64,000 nt of DNA from Paracyclopina nana (lineage: Eukaryota > Arthropoda > Copepoda > Cyclopoida > Cyclopettidae): assembly GCA_019096065.1 (NCBI GenBank), contig JAGUCH010000004.1:2914001-2978000 (forward strand). Direction: 5' to 3'. Below are positions 18,312 to 63,185 of the stretch, piece after piece; position 1 is the first letter of the stretch; each line of letters begins with the position of its first letter. Under the pieces are notes generated by a model, which saw nothing but the letters and a program-made list of their open reading frames with translations, did no database searches and had not been told where the DNA came from. Position numbers and translations under genes: made by a program.

Positions 18312-20799
18312 ATGAAACTTTCCTGCATGCATTCTTTATTCATGGTATTTTTTCGCATATTTTCAGCGGTTCTCGGCTCTGAATATTGCTCAGGTTATAT
18401 GGACGCCCTTGGGAAATGGAACAATGGGTTTTATTGCCCGAATTCAGACGAAAGCAGCGATGTCTTTTGTTGCGGCTCTGAAGTGCACAAATACTGCTGC
18501 ACAAAAAAGGACAAAGTTATCCAGTCAGAAGTGCAAGAGTGAGTATAAAAAACAATAATTCATGCCCGGCATATGCGAATAGCTTTAGTAATCATACATG
18601 ATTGTGGCCATACTCCTGCTCAACCTGATTAATTGACAAAAGTAACCTTGAGTGCTCAAATACAAAGGAGTAAATATGAGACAAAAGACACTTGATTAAC
18701 TAGCTTTAGGCTTCAATTACTCACGAGCCAATTTGTAATCGAGACCTTGTTTAAACACCGTGGTGATGAGCATGTTTTGGAAAAAAATGAAAATCAATCA
18801 GAGTTCACTTTGGTGCATCTGTTGAGGAAAACAGAATTACCATAAGTGTTTTTTTCCCACCAAATACATGTTTTTGGCATTTTTGACGCTCAAACGGCGA
18901 AAACAGTCAGGTCGAGCGCGCAACTCCCGCCAAAACAAATCGCAGCGCCATCTAGCGGATTATTGCCGCGCATCGTGTTTTTATAAAATTAAAGTTTGGA
19001 AGAATTCTTAATTGATGTCATCATCATTAATTGCAGCCTGACAATTTACATTGGTATCATTGTCGGTGCAGCGGCCGCACTTTTAATTATCACTCTGGTC
19101 TCGTGCTTCTGTTGTTCCTGCTGTTTTCTGTACAAAAAACGCAATCCGTCATCAGGTACGTGGGCAATTACTCACTGATCACGACGTCTCTTCTGACAGC
19201 CTGTTTTCCTATGCTTTATGCAGCTTCAATGTACCGTCTTCACAATATCAGTGAGCACGGCAGTGGAGTCACCAATATGTACAGCCTTTCAAACGCGGCC
19301 TCGAGGGCGGCCACGCCCTTGCAAGTTGGGGGCAATCACGAACAGCTCGTTTTGATATCAGGAACTAACGGCCAAGTTGACCACCATTACCACCACCACC
19401 ACCACCTCGGTGGTCAGCTGTTCTTAGAGGACCGAATTCACCCGAATAATGGCGACCTCATTGGCCTCAGCCATTCGCATACACTCCCACATAACTTGTC
19501 GCATCACATCAAAGGTAATGCACACTTTTTGACGCATATACATTGAGTGAATAGAAAGCAAAGAGACTTTCCTTTAGGGTATCGCGAGAATCCTGACATA
19601 ATTAATCACCAATCAATAATGAGGGAGTATGGAACTCTGGGAAGAATGCCAAGGGAACAGCCACCGCCGTACCAGGACTTCCTGGGCGGACATGAAGACC
19701 AAATCCTCATTCGGTAATTTTTTATGGCCTTTATATTTATAGGAAAAAAGTTGGCTGCAGCCATTAGCTACAACTCACATTTTCGAGAAATGCTTTCTGC
19801 AAGCTTTTCCTATATTGTATGTACTATATCTACCTTGAGCGGATTCTACGTATACATTCCTGATGCAAATCTAAAGCCATAAAAGCCGTTGATTGCAAGC
19901 AGCTCCCACGGTTTCCCCCCTTATAAGAAAAACCAAGAAACTTTCTGGCAAGTCAGCATTAATGTGGAAGACACTAGATTGCTGCTCTGCAAAAAATGTA
20001 AACGCGTAGCTGCTGCGGGCGAAAATGCTGTAGTAGCTTGAACTCTGCTGGGAAAGAAAGTCATTTCATCTCTTGGTCACACTGCTCGCACAACGGACAT
20101 GTCCTGTCGGATTCCTCACATTCACTACCGTTTATCCGAATATTATGTAGGAATTTCAGCATATTCCCTCGTCGTCTGAGGCTGTGAAAGAATGCATATC
20201 CCGTAGAGTCTGATCCGGAAAAAGTTATTTTGCACTTTTTAGAAATCCTTGGTATGTTACGGGAAGTACGTGAATTTTTAAAAATCACATTTTCATTGCT
20301 GCGGTTTTGAAATTAGCCAATGTTTACGAGTTTTGAGTAACTTGGAATTACTTCATAATGCTTTGATTTTTTAGAATACCAAGTTCAAAACTTGAAATTT
20401 CAGCTGCATTAATTGATGGCGAATTTGCTTTCATAATTAAGGCATGTGAAGAAGTGCGACTTGAATTTTTCCGATCAGACTCAAAGGTCTAAAAAGAGGT
20501 GCTTCTTATATGTCTAGCCATTGTGCAGACTGACAATTGACAAATGGACACAAAAAAGTAACAGCCTAGCCATCTGGGAATCAATGAGGTCGCCTCAAGT
20601 ATCCTTAAGTAAATCTTTTACTCCTTTCAGCCCAATGACCGAGGACAACCCTGCAGTGGTCTCAATATCTCAAGCACTCAGTGGTTCCCAAACGTTGATT
20701 TCTACGAGTCAGCAGCACCAACCTTTGGTTTTCACCACCACAGCAACCATGGATGAGCCGGACAACCCACAACAACTCTTCCACTCGACAAAGTTTTGA
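18312..20799 (+). CDS. shisa: Shisa-family transmembrane adaptor
   Basis: Five exons: 18312-18538, 19037-19155, 19224-19514, 19578-19713, 20631-20799; phases agree, giving 313 residues. Order: signal peptide (about residues 1-22); the Shisa Cys-rich ectodomain starting YCSGYMDALGKW and containing FCCGS and YCC; one transmembrane helix (IIVGAAAALLIITLVSC) followed by a run of membrane-proximal cysteines and KKR; a long cytoplasmic tail with a five-His run and a PPPY motif (EQPPPYQDF) that would bind WW domains. Shisa proteins sit in the ER or plasma membrane and control trafficking of receptors such as Frizzled, FGFR and, in vertebrates, AMPA receptors. The partner in this animal cannot be told from sequence. 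Confidence 0.88.
18945..18958 (-). promoter_or_regulatory. CTCF-like binding motif in shisa intron 1
   Basis: The minus strand reads CCGCTAGATGGCGC, matching the AGATGGCGC core of the insect CTCF site. A related motif occurs at 49162-49175. Confidence 0.4.
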
Positions 20800-58444: not shown

Positions 58445-58574
58445 ATGGCCAACACACCTGTGATCGTTTTTAGCTTACTAAGTTGAATGAAGTTTTCGTG
58501 TGAACACGTGTTGATTTTACCTTCTTATACCTAACGGCTGAAATTCGATTTTTGTTTTTCTTCTAGAAAGGCTA

Positions 58575-60473
58575 ATGTGGTCAAGCGTTTACAAGAGGCT
58601 TGTACGAAAGAAAACATTTGAGGGAGATGCGAGTGCGGCGACCAAGTTGGATAGATGTATGACATTGTTCGACTTGACAGCCCTGGGCGTAGGTGCCACC
58701 ATGGGGGTGGGCATCTACGTCCTTGCTGGTGCTGTGGCTAAGGATGTGGCTGGACCTTCGGTGGTTTTATCATTTCTTATCGCAGGAGTGGCCTCGAGCC
58801 TTTCTGGGTTATGCTATGCTGAATTGGGATCAAGGTATCTTGTTGCTGCAGCAGGTATTGATATATTTTCTGCATCATGTCTTCATCCTCTTTCCAGAGT
58901 GCCTAAAGCTGGCTCGGCTTACATTTACAGCTATGTCACTGTTGGAGAGGGAGTTGGCTTTGTCATTGGCTGGAACCTCATTCTTGAATATGCTATTGGA
59001 ACAGCATCTGTGGCAAGGGGCTACTCTGGCTATTTGGACAGTCTTATGAACAAAACCATGGCCAACGCATTCCGATCAGTTCTACCCATGAACATTCCAT
59101 ACTTATCTCCATACCCAGATTTGTGCGCATTCGTCATCACCCTACTCCTTACATTCATCCTTTGCATCGGTGTCAAAGAGTCGACTCGTTTCAACAATGT
59201 GTTCACCTCGCTCAACATTTGTGTTGTCGTATTTGTCACCATCTGTGGGTTCATCAAAGCTGACCTTCACAACTGGAAGCTCACGTTAGACGACTTGCCC
59301 TCAAATGGGAAGTATGGAATGGGAGGATTTTTTCCATATGGAATATCAGGAACATTATCTGGGGCAGCCACCTGCTTCTATGGATATGTGGGATTTGACA
59401 GCATCGCCACAAGTGGAGAGGAAGCGCAAAACCCACAAAGAAATATTCCTCTTGCCATCATCATGTCTCTTGGCTTTGTATTTGTGGCTTATTGTGGAAT
59501 CTCTTCTGCCTTGACGTTGATGCTACCCTATTATCTGCAAGATGCTTCTGCGCCGTTGCCATTCGCCTTCCATGAGACAGGTTGGGTGTTTGCTGGCTAC
59601 ATTGTGTCTGGAGGCGCTTTATTTGGACTCTCGACCAGCCTCTTAGGGGCTATGTTTCCTTTACCAAGAGTTTTGTATGCAATGGCATCCGATGGACTCT
59701 TGTTTCGTTGGCTGGCTCATGTTCATCCTAGATATCAGACACCTTTTAGGGCAACATTGGTAGCTGGCACATTAGCTGGCACCATGGCTTCCCTGTTTGA
59801 GCTAAAAAATCTCGTCGATATGATGTCAATTGGCACTCTCATGGCGTACACAGTCGTATGCATGGCTGTTATTATTCTGCGTTATCGGCCTGATGATGGA
59901 AGCTTTAAAGGTGACTATATAGCGTTGACAGCTCATGCCAAATTACTAGCCGATGACACTTTAGACTCTGAAGAAGATGACGATGAAGAAATTGTTTATT
60001 GTAGTGATGAGCACCCAGTGCTTCCCACTAATGATCCTATTCCACAAAAGAAAAAAGCCCCAAGTTCATTAATGAGGTCCTTGCTCTGTCCTTGGACCAT
60101 TTCAACTCCTGATGATTTCACTGCTTCCGCTGCAAATGTGCTAATTTTCTCTTCCTCCCTTGGAAGCTTCATCCTAGCTTTGATTTTGATTCACGCTGAA
60201 AGTAAGCTTATTCCTTCTCTCGTTTTCTTCGCTTTTGTGCTTTTATGTTCAATCTGGACGTGGTTTTTACCCTGTGGTGACCATAAGTTGTCCTTCAAGG
60301 TACCTTTGGTGCCATTTTTACCTAACATCAGCATTTTCATTAACTTGTACCTGATGCTCAAGTTGAGCCCGGCCACTTGGGTCAGATTTTCAGTGTGGAT
60401 GACAGTTGGAGCTTCCATTTACATCTTCTATGGATGGAAAAACTCGTCTGAAGAGAAGAAAAACAGATACTAG
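58575..60473 (+). CDS. SLC7A: Cationic amino-acid transporter (SLC7 CAT type)
   Basis: Exons 58575-58834 and 58898-60473 give 611 residues. The 63-bp intron (58835-58897, GTATCT...TTTCCAG) is a multiple of three and has no stop, so the unspliced frame also reads through. Splicing restores the family sequence AELGSR-VPKAGSAYIYSY. Landmarks: TALGVGATMGVGIYVLAG (first helix, substrate-binding Gly-rich segment), GWNLILEYAIGTASVAR, FYGYVGFDSIATSGEEA, PLPRVLYAMASDGLLF and the extra C-terminal helices that distinguish CATs from smaller SLC7 members. It should carry arginine, lysine and ornithine at the plasma membrane, like Drosophila slimfast. An acidic cytoplasmic loop (SEEDDDEEIVYC) lies near residue 455. 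Confidence 0.93.
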   Translation: MWSSVYKRLVRKKTFEGDASAATKLDRCMTLFDLTALGVGATMGVGIYVLAGAVAKDVAGPSVVLSFLIAGVASSLSGLCYAELGSRYLVAAAGIDIFSASCLHPLSRVPKAGSAYIYSYVTVGEGVGFVIGWNLILEYAIGTASVARGYSGYLDSLMNKTMANAFRSVLPMNIPYLSPYPDLCAFVITLLLTFILCIGVKESTRFNNVFTSLNICVVVFVTICGFIKADLHNWKLTLDDLPSNGKYGMGGFFPYGISGTLSGAATCFYGYVGFDSIATSGEEAQNPQRNIPLAIIMSLGFVFVAYCGISSALTLMLPYYLQDASAPLPFAFHETGWVFAGYIVSGGALFGLSTSLLGAMFPLPRVLYAMASDGLLFRWLAHVHPRYQTPFRATLVAGTLAGTMASLFELKNLVDMMSIGTLMAYTVVCMAVIILRYRPDDGSFKGDYIALTAHAKLLADDTLDSEEDDDEEIVYCSDEHPVLPTNDPIPQKKKAPSSLMRSLLCPWTISTPDDFTASAANVLIFSSSLGSFILALILIHAESKLIPSLVFFAFVLLCSIWTWFLPCGDHKLSFKVPLVPFLPNISIFINLYLMLKLSPATWVRFSVWMTVGASIYIFYGWKNSSEEKKNRY

Positions 60474-60757: not shown

Positions 60758-61462
60758 ATGGCCGGAGCTGCACCCTTAGACGTTGGAGAGATCATGGCGA
60801 GCCAGCTGATGAAGGCCGCTCAAATTGTGGAAGATCAACTTGACGCCGAAATTGATAGGCTAGAGAATATGGGCGATGACGAGCTGGAGGTTTTGCGTCA
60901 AAAACGGTTAGCAGGTATGAAAAAGCAGGCCGCTAAGAAGCAGGAGTGGCTCGCCAATGGTCATGGGCAGTATGAGGAGATCCCTGAGGAGAAAGAATTC
61001 TTCAACGTGACAAAGAAAAGTGAAAATGTGGTGGTGCATTTCTACAAGGATGACTCTTTTCGGTGCAAAATTCTGGATAAGCACATGGCATTATTGGCCA
61101 ATAAGCATGTGGAAACGAAGTTCTGCAAGATCGATGCTGTCAAGTGCCCCTTTTTGACAGACAGGCTCAAAATAAGGGTTATCCCTACCATGGCTGTCAT
61201 TAAGGACGGAAAAACATTGGACTACATTGTGGGATTCACTGATCTTGGCAACACGGATGAGTTCTCAACTGAAATGTTGGAATGGAGATTGGGAGCAACT
61301 GGCATCATCAACTACTCAGGGGATCTCATGACTCCTCCGGATGGATCAGGTGGCAGTGGTGGCAAGAAAAAGGTCAACATTTTGGGAAAGTCCAAGAACA
61401 AAAGTATTAGAGGGAGCAATGTCGCAGGTGGAGACGATTCAAGTGACAACGATGATTGGTGA
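60758..61462 (+). CDS. TXNDC9: Thioredoxin domain-containing protein 9 (PhLP3)
   Basis: Intronless, 234 residues (human 226). The N-terminal helix MASQLMKAAQIVEDQLDAEI and DELEVLRQKRL lead into a thioredoxin fold with VVVHFYKDDSFRCKILDKH. There the usual CxxC is replaced by the single-Cys pattern of the phosducin-like family. FCKIDAVKCPFLTDRLKIRVIPTMAVIKDG follows as two conserved blocks. The tail is Gly/Ser-rich and ends SSDNDDW. PhLP3 proteins regulate the cytosolic chaperonin CCT in folding actin and tubulin. The stop lies 298 bases from the end of the minus-strand ArsS gene, tail to tail. Confidence 0.94.
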   Translation: MAGAAPLDVGEIMASQLMKAAQIVEDQLDAEIDRLENMGDDELEVLRQKRLAGMKKQAAKKQEWLANGHGQYEEIPEEKEFFNVTKKSENVVVHFYKDDSFRCKILDKHMALLANKHVETKFCKIDAVKCPFLTDRLKIRVIPTMAVIKDGKTLDYIVGFTDLGNTDEFSTEMLEWRLGATGIINYSGDLMTPPDGSGGSGGKKKVNILGKSKNKSIRGSNVAGGDDSSDNDDW

Positions 61463-61670
61463 TAAGTACCTTTCTATGCATTTTACTACAATTTTTATGA
61501 TTTCTTACTCACTTTTGAAGGCCTACTTCTGATAGGCATAACTCCGCTCACATCGATCATGTTAATAAACACAGAAATTATGCACAAATTCCATTCGGAA
61601 AGTATAAGAGTCATTTACGTACAAAGAAGTTAAATATTTTAAGATTTCTTCAGTCTTGTTTCAGCTCCTC

Positions 61671-61713
61671 ATCAGATATGAACGGCCAATAGGCTTTCCA
61701 TTCACAACGTCAT
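61671..61713 (-). promoter_or_regulatory. SECIS-like element in the ArsS 3' UTR
   Basis: On the minus strand, ATGA (61713-61710) and TGAT (61674-61671) bracket a stem of about 11 pairs (GTTGTGAATGG with CCGTTCATATC, one mismatch). The apical loop starts AAA and holds a small CC/GG mini-stem. This is the arrangement of a form-2 eukaryotic SECIS: the UGA/GA quartet, a stem of about 11-13 pairs, and AAA at the loop. Flanking bases (GTTT..GCT and AGC..AAAC) can extend a lower stem. It begins 68 bases after the in-frame TGA of the ArsS gene. Confidence 0.7.
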
Positions 61714-61760
61714 TAAATAGCCTCAAACTATTTAGGAGCGAAAAAGCTGCTATTCTCGGA

Positions 61761-63185
61761 CTATCCCGTCAGAGCTCCCAGTCAGCTTGACCCTTTGCCA
61801 GCTGTACACCCGTAGCAGTGATTGTCAGTTTTGATGGGGACTTTCAGAAGGTCATCGCAACTTTCAATATCAAACACACTTTTGGCATTGCCTGCAAGGA
61901 AGTTGGAAATTTCAAGTTCAAATGTGCTTTTGCTGCAGACATATCATACCTGAAATCGATAACGCCAATTGTTGATTGAAGTCGCAATCATAAATGAGTC
62001 CTTCGTAGCTAACACTTATGAGGTTAACGCACATCAAGTTGTCAAGGGTAGAAGGGCTAAAGTTGCGCACAAGCAGGTCCATGTAATCATGCAATTCATC
62101 TCTTCGATGAAGGAAATCAGCAAACCTTTTGATGGGCATATTTGTCATAGTGTACAGGGAATTGAAATCAATATCAAAGGCCTCTTTCAGTTCAGCCTTG
62201 TACTTTGTCTCCAGGTCACTTTGCTCAGGAGGCAAAAAGGCTCCCAACGGATTGTACACCAAGTCCAATTTGAGGCCAGTCCCATCAATGCCATATCCGA
62301 GGTCATTGAGCAATTGAAGAGCGGAGATGCTCCTTTGGAAGACTCCACTGCCTCTCTGAAGGTTGACGTTTTTAGCTGAATAGCATGGTAGTGAAGCCAC
62401 AACTTGAACTTTATGCTCAGACAAAAAATGAGCAGTATCCTCTTGACCAGGCTCCAAAAGAGCAGTAAGATTGCATCTGTCAATGATTGTTTTGCCAAGC
62501 TTGGACGACTCCTCAACAATGTATCGAAATTCTGGACACAACTCCGGTGCTCCACCTACAGTTGCACAATTAAAGTTCTTCTTCGGTTAAGAGAGGGTTT
62601 GAGGTAGTACCTGTGATGTCAACAGTTGTAATAGCCTCAGAATTCTTAAGAATATGAATGCATCTCTGAGCAATCTCATTGCTCATGACCTCTTTGATCT
62701 TTTTGGGCGAACTTTCAACGTGGCAATGAGAGCAAGCTTGGTTGCAGTACAGCCCAATGTTAAGTTGCAGAGTTTTAGCCTGCTTGCGTACCAATTCCTG
62801 AGCAGAGCTCTTAACAAATTGATGAAAAGGGGGAACTCCCAGAGCATCAAGAGCTCTTTGGCGTTGCTTCCTTTCTTCTCTAGTCAAAGCCTTTTGGCCT
62901 TGTTCTTTTAGGGCTTTTTGAGCAGCTTGAAATTCGGTGTCATTGAGCATCTCCCTAAGAGTTTCAGGAATCAAAGAACCCTAGGCATAAAAATCATGAT
63001 GTATAGCTTGACACATTGGCTAAAAACTTCAATACTTGAGGTGCAGAAGCCAATCTTGTTTTTCTAGTTGGCCGGGTTAATTTGTGCTCGTGAATGTTGA
63101 TTGTCGTAGGTTGATCAATCCCAGAGGTGGACATAGCACGAAAGGGCCATCTCACCCTCATGTAGGGCAGCCTCAGCGAAATCAT
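61761..63185 (-). CDS. arsS: ArsS-family radical SAM protein, probable selenoprotein
   Basis: Minus-strand exons 63185-63036, 62980-62611, 62555-61950, 61891-61761; phases match. Reading TGA 61784-61782 as selenocysteine gives 418 residues; stopping there gives 411. Residues 1-25 are Arg-rich without acids up to Asp24, possibly a mitochondrial presequence. The radical SAM cluster motif is CNQACSHC (Cys129, 133, 136), followed by TVDITG-GAPEL spanning an intron. The C-terminal domain carries YDCDFNQ and ends HCYGCTAGKGSS-U-LGALTG, where bacterial relatives have Cys or Sec. Bacterial ArsS converts methylated arsenicals toward arsenosugars. A SECIS-like fold follows. Four introns-bounded exons and animal neighbours on both sides argue against contamination. 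Confidence 0.9.

Follow-up and report, generated by a model that had tools for sequence, protein, structure and literature searches.

Does the gene for ArsS, a radical-SAM enzyme of arsenic metabolism known mainly from bacteria, in an animal genome use an in-frame TGA to encode selenocysteine (Sec)? This question is raised by a minus-strand gene in the window (the whole 64-kb stretch of DNA that was analysed), whose last exon reaches HCYGCTAGKGSS and then a TGA codon, which the original prediction read as Sec. We infer, with a probability of roughly 0.92, that the gene encodes a working animal selenoprotein ArsS of arsenosugar biosynthesis, in which UGA codon 412 would be decoded as Sec under the direction of a SECIS element. 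Below, the gene and its family, the TGA codon, the SECIS element and the decoding machinery are considered in turn, followed by the evolution of the site and its meaning.

The arsS gene and its genomic context

The gene and one convergent neighbour have the following features:

63185-61761, minus strand: ArsS coding chain, from ATG at 63185 to TAG at 61763-61761; four exons, 418 residues, one in-frame TGA
63036..63185, minus strand: exon 1, with the ATG start at 63185; residues 1-50, N-terminal extension
62981..63035, minus strand: intron 1, 55 nt, GT-AG
62611..62980, minus strand: exon 2, with the radical-SAM CxxxCxxC (residues 129, 133 and 136) at 62746-62723
62556..62610, minus strand: intron 2, 55 nt, GT-AG
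61950..62555, minus strand: exon 3, with C349-x9-G359-x4-C364 inside DUF3641
61892..61949, minus strand: intron 3, 58 nt, GT-AG
61761..61891, minus strand: exon 4, encoding the C-terminus HCYGCTAGKGSS-U-LGALTG
61782..61784, minus strand: in-frame TGA codon, proposed selenocysteine, residue 412
61761..61763, minus strand: TAG, proposed true stop, seven codons past the TGA
60761..61462, plus strand: TXNDC9/phosducin-like gene, convergent neighbour with an ordinary TGA stop (context)

The exon chain of the original prediction proved exact in its coordinates. Once its three GT-AG introns are removed, the frame is open to HCYGCTAGKGSS, followed by TGA (61784-61782), LGALTG and TAG; apart from this TGA, the 418 codons contain no lesion. 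The spliced protein, in which C was entered for the TGA residue, scored 421 bits (cut-off 300) against the TIGR04167 (rSAM_SeCys) profile, matching positions 2-303 of 303. It contains Radical_SAM and DUF3641 domains (PF12345, DUF3641, 177 bits), and its radical-SAM CxxxCxxC consists of C129, C133 and C136. Judged by these sequence features, the four-exon gene on the minus strand is an ArsS gene of radical-SAM family TIGR04167. A search of the 92-Mb assembly found no other ArsS gene.

A combined FERM, PDZ and tyrosine phosphatase architecture is known from animals and their close kin. Because adjacent reading frames in the 64-kb window carry FERM, PDZ and tyrosine phosphatase domains, and because the introns are short and spliceosomal, the host is taken to be an animal. 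The arsS gene lies in a 9.7-Mb contig, near COG6, amino-acid permease and TXNDC9-like genes; an origin from a contaminant was ruled out by these neighbours, the size of the contig and the three spliceosomal introns.

Some further details of the neighbourhood were recorded. The ATG of arsS (63185) stands directly 3' of TTTCAG, which looks like trans-splicing, with possible operons. The ATG of the permease gene (about 58560-58580) likewise follows a CTAG acceptor-like site, some 130 nt after the COG6 stop, and has the look of trans-splicing or an operon. A tRNA-Pro (TGG) was called at window positions 20308-20404 with a length of 97 nt, which leaves room for an intron.

Family fold and predicted substrate

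The spacing C349-x9-G359-x4-C364 is presumably that of a twitch/SPASM cluster and, together with C401 and C404, its presence in the protein sequence suggests a second cluster. A structure model of a bacterial ArsS homologue, built on an alignment of 35 of the 80 genome loci described in the next section, had a mean pLDDT of 85.4 and resembled the structures of SkfB, BlsE, MoaA, EpeE, PqqE and SpeY, which we take to be radical-SAM enzymes, and for the most part twitch/SPASM ones. Confidence dropped in the tail of this model (mean pLDDT 53 over residues 291-300 and below 50 from residue 298, the Cys being model residue 297), as would be expected of a mobile tail.

ArsS is associated with arsenic methyltransferase. 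In arsenosugar biosynthesis, a radical SAM enzyme adenosylates arsenic, according to the excerpt of a review that cites Cheng et al. 2021 on ArsS (PMC12159101). Two AS3MT-like genes, unlinked to arsS, were found in the same genome (G000 C2:3601962-3602492 and C2:5937616-5937926). Scored exon by exon, they fall short of the cut-off for the family. Compared with solved structures, a fragment of one hit arsenic methyltransferases (4.6e-52), and the other was assigned by its resemblance to the first. Such genes could supply the dimethylarsenic substrate.

The protein might also be a selenoprotein that performs a radical-SAM transfer on some other substrate, outside arsenosugar synthesis, a reading that overlaps with ours on the matter of Sec. 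The identified neighbours of arsS (the COG6, amino-acid permease and TXNDC9-like genes) include none of arsenic metabolism, and the search for the arsenic pathway covered AS3MT-like genes and ArsS only, both of which were found. On the other hand, the family matched at full length, with 421 bits, is curated by NCBI as an equivalog, with a single function, and the AS3MT-like genes are a potential source of substrate. We consider a different substrate unlikely, at a level that still deserves attention, and favour a role of the selenoprotein in arsenosugar synthesis.

The TGA codon at a Cys/Sec position

The residue aligned with the animal TGA is Cys in 84 of 84 related loci (80 genome contigs, 3 plasmids and 1 viral contig). 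This set combined the best 80 of 592 confirmed loci with four others (3 plasmid, 1 viral), and the query used for ranking bore Cys at the column, which favours Cys forms in it. One pattern identified the codon in 72 loci (48 TGC and 24 TGT), and a further 12 Cys were recognised on a second look. The preceding residues in the 84 loci are GSS, except for one GSG. The C-terminal alignment with bacterial ArsS proposed in the original prediction used 83 ORFs extracted from 86 loci (L061, L065 and L082 are missing, as the pattern failed on them; one ORF duplicates another). The TGA column is Cys in 83/83 of them, and C129, C133, C349, C364, C401 and C404 are each equally invariant (83/83); C136 is present in 82/83, with one gap. 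The reading of LGALTG plus TAG as the ending of the family also held, with Gly at position 414 in every one of the 83 ORFs.

Sec forms were sought in 395 bacterial genomes of the phylum of locus L071 (titled Desulfuromonadales), which are the sole source of the Sec-form rows. ArsS was detected at E<=1e-60 in 120 of these 395 genomes. Among the 124 matches listed, 39 contained exactly one TGA, 1 contained a TAG and 84 were without a stop. The TGA lies at the identical column in all 39 single-TGA genes (27 by pattern, 12 separately), within the motif (H/Y)CxxC(T/A)(A/S)GxG(F/S)(T/S)-TGA-xG, and is preceded by GFT in 36 of the 39. The new stop-free bacterial loci (L126-L152) have Cys at this column in 27/27 cases (26 by pattern, plus L150).

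The animal TGA takes the Cys/Sec position that follows the GSS of the C-terminal HCxGCTAGxGSS motif. Since Cys occupies the column in Cys-type loci and TGA occupies it in 39/39 single-TGA bacterial genes, column 412 of ArsS is, on these alignments, a site where Cys and Sec naturally replace each other, and it is exactly this site that holds the animal TGA. The view that the codon sits at the known Cys/Sec position of ArsS and not at a random place is thereby upheld.

The SECIS element

A further feature was found downstream of the coding chain:

61663..61722, minus strand: SECIS element in the predicted 3' UTR; Rfam SECIS_1, 23.6 bits (Infernal), gathering score 35

The match lies on the sense strand of ArsS and begins 38 nt beyond the TAG. 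Its parts occur in SECIS order: AUGA at 61713-61710, AAA at 61697-61695, the ministem GCC-UAUU-GGC, and UGAU at 61674-61671, with 9/10 core pairs of helix II formed and one U-U. The minimum-free-energy fold of the single sequence contains helix II, the AAA bulge and the ministem, with isolated pairs through the AUGA/UGAU region. The fold energy of the hairpin is moderate and not exceptional (z -1.42), and 21 of 200 shuffled sequences fold equally well. The gap between UGA and the SECIS core is short, 68 nt, compared with 88 nt in thioredoxin reductase. Between 61662 and 61200, the sense strand has no AATAAA or ATTAAA, and the nearest listed variant of the poly(A) signal past the SECIS is CATAAA at 61499.

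A chance hairpin was addressed by a scan of the window, a genome search and controls within the genome. At E<=10, SECIS_1 has no match in the 64-kb window other than that past the arsS TAG. In the 92-Mb genome, where the search scored 133 of 2603 first-look candidates, two matches were reported at this threshold, the second lying behind a glutathione peroxidase (GPx) gene with its own in-frame TGA. The genome-search E-value of 1.38 (both strands) translates into a rough chance estimate of about 7.5e-7 for a match of this score in a given 100-nt sense stretch. Both the ArsS score and that of the GPx element (26.3) are below the gathering score. Of the controls, the GPx element was found; the thioredoxin reductase SECIS was missed by cmscan with Rfam SECIS_1 at E<=10, and no SPS2 SECIS was detected in its 5.5-kb locus, either by cmscan or by a layout scan for AUGA...AAA...UGA. 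The layout scan returned the thioredoxin reductase and GPx elements, plus a further hairpin from the GPx locus. Its limit of at least 28 nt separating AA from TGA left the ArsS element, which has 23, unlisted. Because the thioredoxin reductase element was missed and none was found for SPS2, the SECIS_1 model is insensitive rather than permissive in this genome, which may, given this insensitivity, contain further selenoproteins. The probable thioredoxin reductase SECIS missed by SECIS_1 at E<=10 lies at L025 3050-3096.

These results bear on whether the TGA might be a real stop, in which case the gene would be decaying or would encode an ArsS truncated by seven residues. The neighbouring COG6 and TXNDC9-like genes do end at ordinary TGA codons, so the genetic code is standard, and such a stop at arsS would be in keeping with this. 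However, the TGA of arsS replaces a residue that is Cys throughout the aligned ORFs, and the codons that come next still spell the ending of the family. The absence of other lesions and the intact splice sites argue against decay. In addition, a SECIS match lies immediately behind the following stop codon, and the search of the 92-Mb genome reported just one other. Termination at this TGA is accordingly improbable, and decoding as Sec is the reading retained.

Selenocysteine machinery and other selenoprotein genes

A genome devoid of Sec machinery had been named in the original prediction as grounds for rejecting it, along with the suggestion to look for tRNA-Sec and EFSec. Both were found: the genome carries a tRNA-Sec with anticodon TCA (78.8 bits) and an eEFSec gene, as well as genes for SepSecS and SPS2. 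The SPS2 gene has an in-frame TGA in LKG(TGA)GCKVPQE, which we take to be its known Sec site. The thioredoxin reductase gene ends in GC(TGA)G, and the GPx gene reads NVASK(TGA)GKT, with the second genomic SECIS_1 match downstream. In the GPx locus (L021 2757-4635, G000 contig C4), the catalytic exon and the last exon flank a same-strand short-chain dehydrogenase-like frame, which appears as if nested in a GPx intron.

The proposal that the in-frame TGA encodes Sec is thus well supported: UGA 412 is very probably read in this way because the codon lies in the TGA column of the family, a SECIS element follows the TAG at the right place and on the right strand, the machinery genes are present, and the genes for SPS2, thioredoxin reductase and GPx have TGA where Sec is known to lie in these proteins. 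The UGA could instead be read through by a near-cognate tRNA or by general read-through, with the hairpin there by chance; the unexceptional fold energy and a Rfam score below the gathering score would allow this. Yet AUGA, AAA, the ministem and UGAU stand in SECIS order, the position is that of the TGA in all 39 single-TGA bacterial genes, and the Sec machinery is encoded in the genome, which makes this explanation very improbable. A Cys codon (TGC or TGT) misread as TGA in sequencing or assembly would need just a single-base difference, but it leaves the downstream SECIS unexplained and can hardly be credited.

Evolution of the proposed animal Sec

A tree of 81 rows was built with 30 of the 83 earlier rows, 26 of the 27 new Cys rows and 24 of the 39 Sec rows. 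Animal ArsS grouped with 23 Cys-type bacterial rows (support 99/94), while the bacterial Sec rows fell into a single clade of 22 rows (100/100) and, apart from it, a pair (100/99). The residues before the animal TGA are GSS, as in the Cys form, and not GFT. Since the tree puts the animal protein with Cys-type ArsS and apart from the Sec clades of bacteria, a placement with which the GSS flank agrees, the animal Sec probably arose, within this sample, by a Cys-to-Sec change of its own, either within the animal lineage or in an ancestor.

The twelve nearest bacterial rows share 55-58% identity with the animal protein over residues 113-418. As to a close donor bacterium, no firm sister appeared in either tree: the Omnitrophota row L062 stood with animal ArsS at 85/91 in the earlier tree, which omitted L061, L065 and L082 (ORF not extracted), L114 (a fragment) and L115 (a duplicate), and was unpaired in the 81-row tree.

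The separate pair of Sec rows, L153 and L154 (bacterial genomes G167 and G303), has GST before the TGA and stands on the Cys side of the tree. Going by these sequences, bacterial ArsS too may have gained Sec on more than one occasion.

Proposed mode of action

In the proposed model, the four exons would be spliced into one arsS mRNA, whose 3' UTR SECIS hairpin would recruit the animal Sec machinery; UGA codon 412 would then be decoded as Sec, and translation would stop at the TAG seven codons on. The predicted product would carry one radical-SAM cluster, on C129/C133/C136. Its C-terminal half, twitch/SPASM-like with C349, C364, C401 and C404, may hold another cluster, and the protein would end in a short tail, GSS-U-LGALTG, that is probably flexible. 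Animal ArsS probably adenosylates dimethylarsenic from the animal's own AS3MT-type methyltransferases, as the bacterial radical SAM enzyme of the pathway adenosylates arsenic. The Sec of the tail might, in its selenolate form, bind As(III), the substrate, or might act as a redox selenol that resets the enzyme. Taken further, the animal would make arsenosugar precursors itself, with dimethylarsenic from its own AS3MT adenosylated by a Sec-containing ArsS whose Sec is independent of the bacterial one; we put this forward tentatively, at somewhat less than even odds.

Relation to known selenoproteins

The nearest known system is the bacterial Cys-form ArsS (TIGR04167), which the animal protein resembles in its full-length profile match, the same set of cysteines and the GSSC-xG ending. 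The animal gene differs in having spliceosomal introns, TGA in place of the Cys codon, a SECIS in the predicted 3' UTR, and an N-terminal extension of about 112 residues, part of which aligns with some bacterial rows. With the bacterial Sec-type ArsS it shares the TGA at the identical column (39/39). That form mostly has GFT before the TGA (36/39), whereas the animal has GSS and falls within the Cys clade, and the bacterial SECIS is located in the coding region, as described in an excerpt of PMC13188914, in contrast to the predicted 3' UTR position in animal ArsS. Thioredoxin reductase (GCUG) of the same genome offers a parallel in its Sec on a short C-terminal tail, encoded by UGA with a probable 3' UTR SECIS, although it is an unrelated enzyme and ArsS is a radical-SAM protein.

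Among prokaryotes, TIGR04167 is a listed selenoprotein family in excerpts of PMC13188914 and PMC9312934; the former names it 'Radical SAM domain protein, TIGR04167, GxxU' and lists apart from it a Fe-S oxidoreductase-like selenoprotein (PTHR43551, UGH motif). The algal FeSoxR, as described in an excerpt of PMC7539508, is alike in being a eukaryotic selenoprotein called FeS oxidoreductase; it may or may not be related to ArsS. For animals, the family list of SelenoDB 2.0, as given in an excerpt of PMC3965025, is without TIGR04167 or another radical-SAM enzyme, and the excerpt of a metazoan selenoprotein survey shows no radical-SAM enzyme (PMC3473315). Among the matches listed in a search of open-access titles and abstract starts, arsenosugar literature included and subscription papers mostly outside its reach, no eukaryotic selenoprotein ArsS was found.

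Significance

If the reading is correct, a radical-SAM enzyme would be added to the animal selenoproteins. Ordinary gene prediction would probably stop at the TGA of such a gene and lose its key residue. The proposed Cys-to-Sec change, outside the bacterial Sec clades, would run against the direction Sec-to-Cys, which an excerpt of PMC13188914 describes as more common in eukaryotes. With arsS and AS3MT-like genes in one genome, arsenosugar synthesis by an animal becomes a directly testable question. If true, the finding would link selenium supply to organoarsenic synthesis in an animal and would provide a genetic route to animal arsenic compounds.
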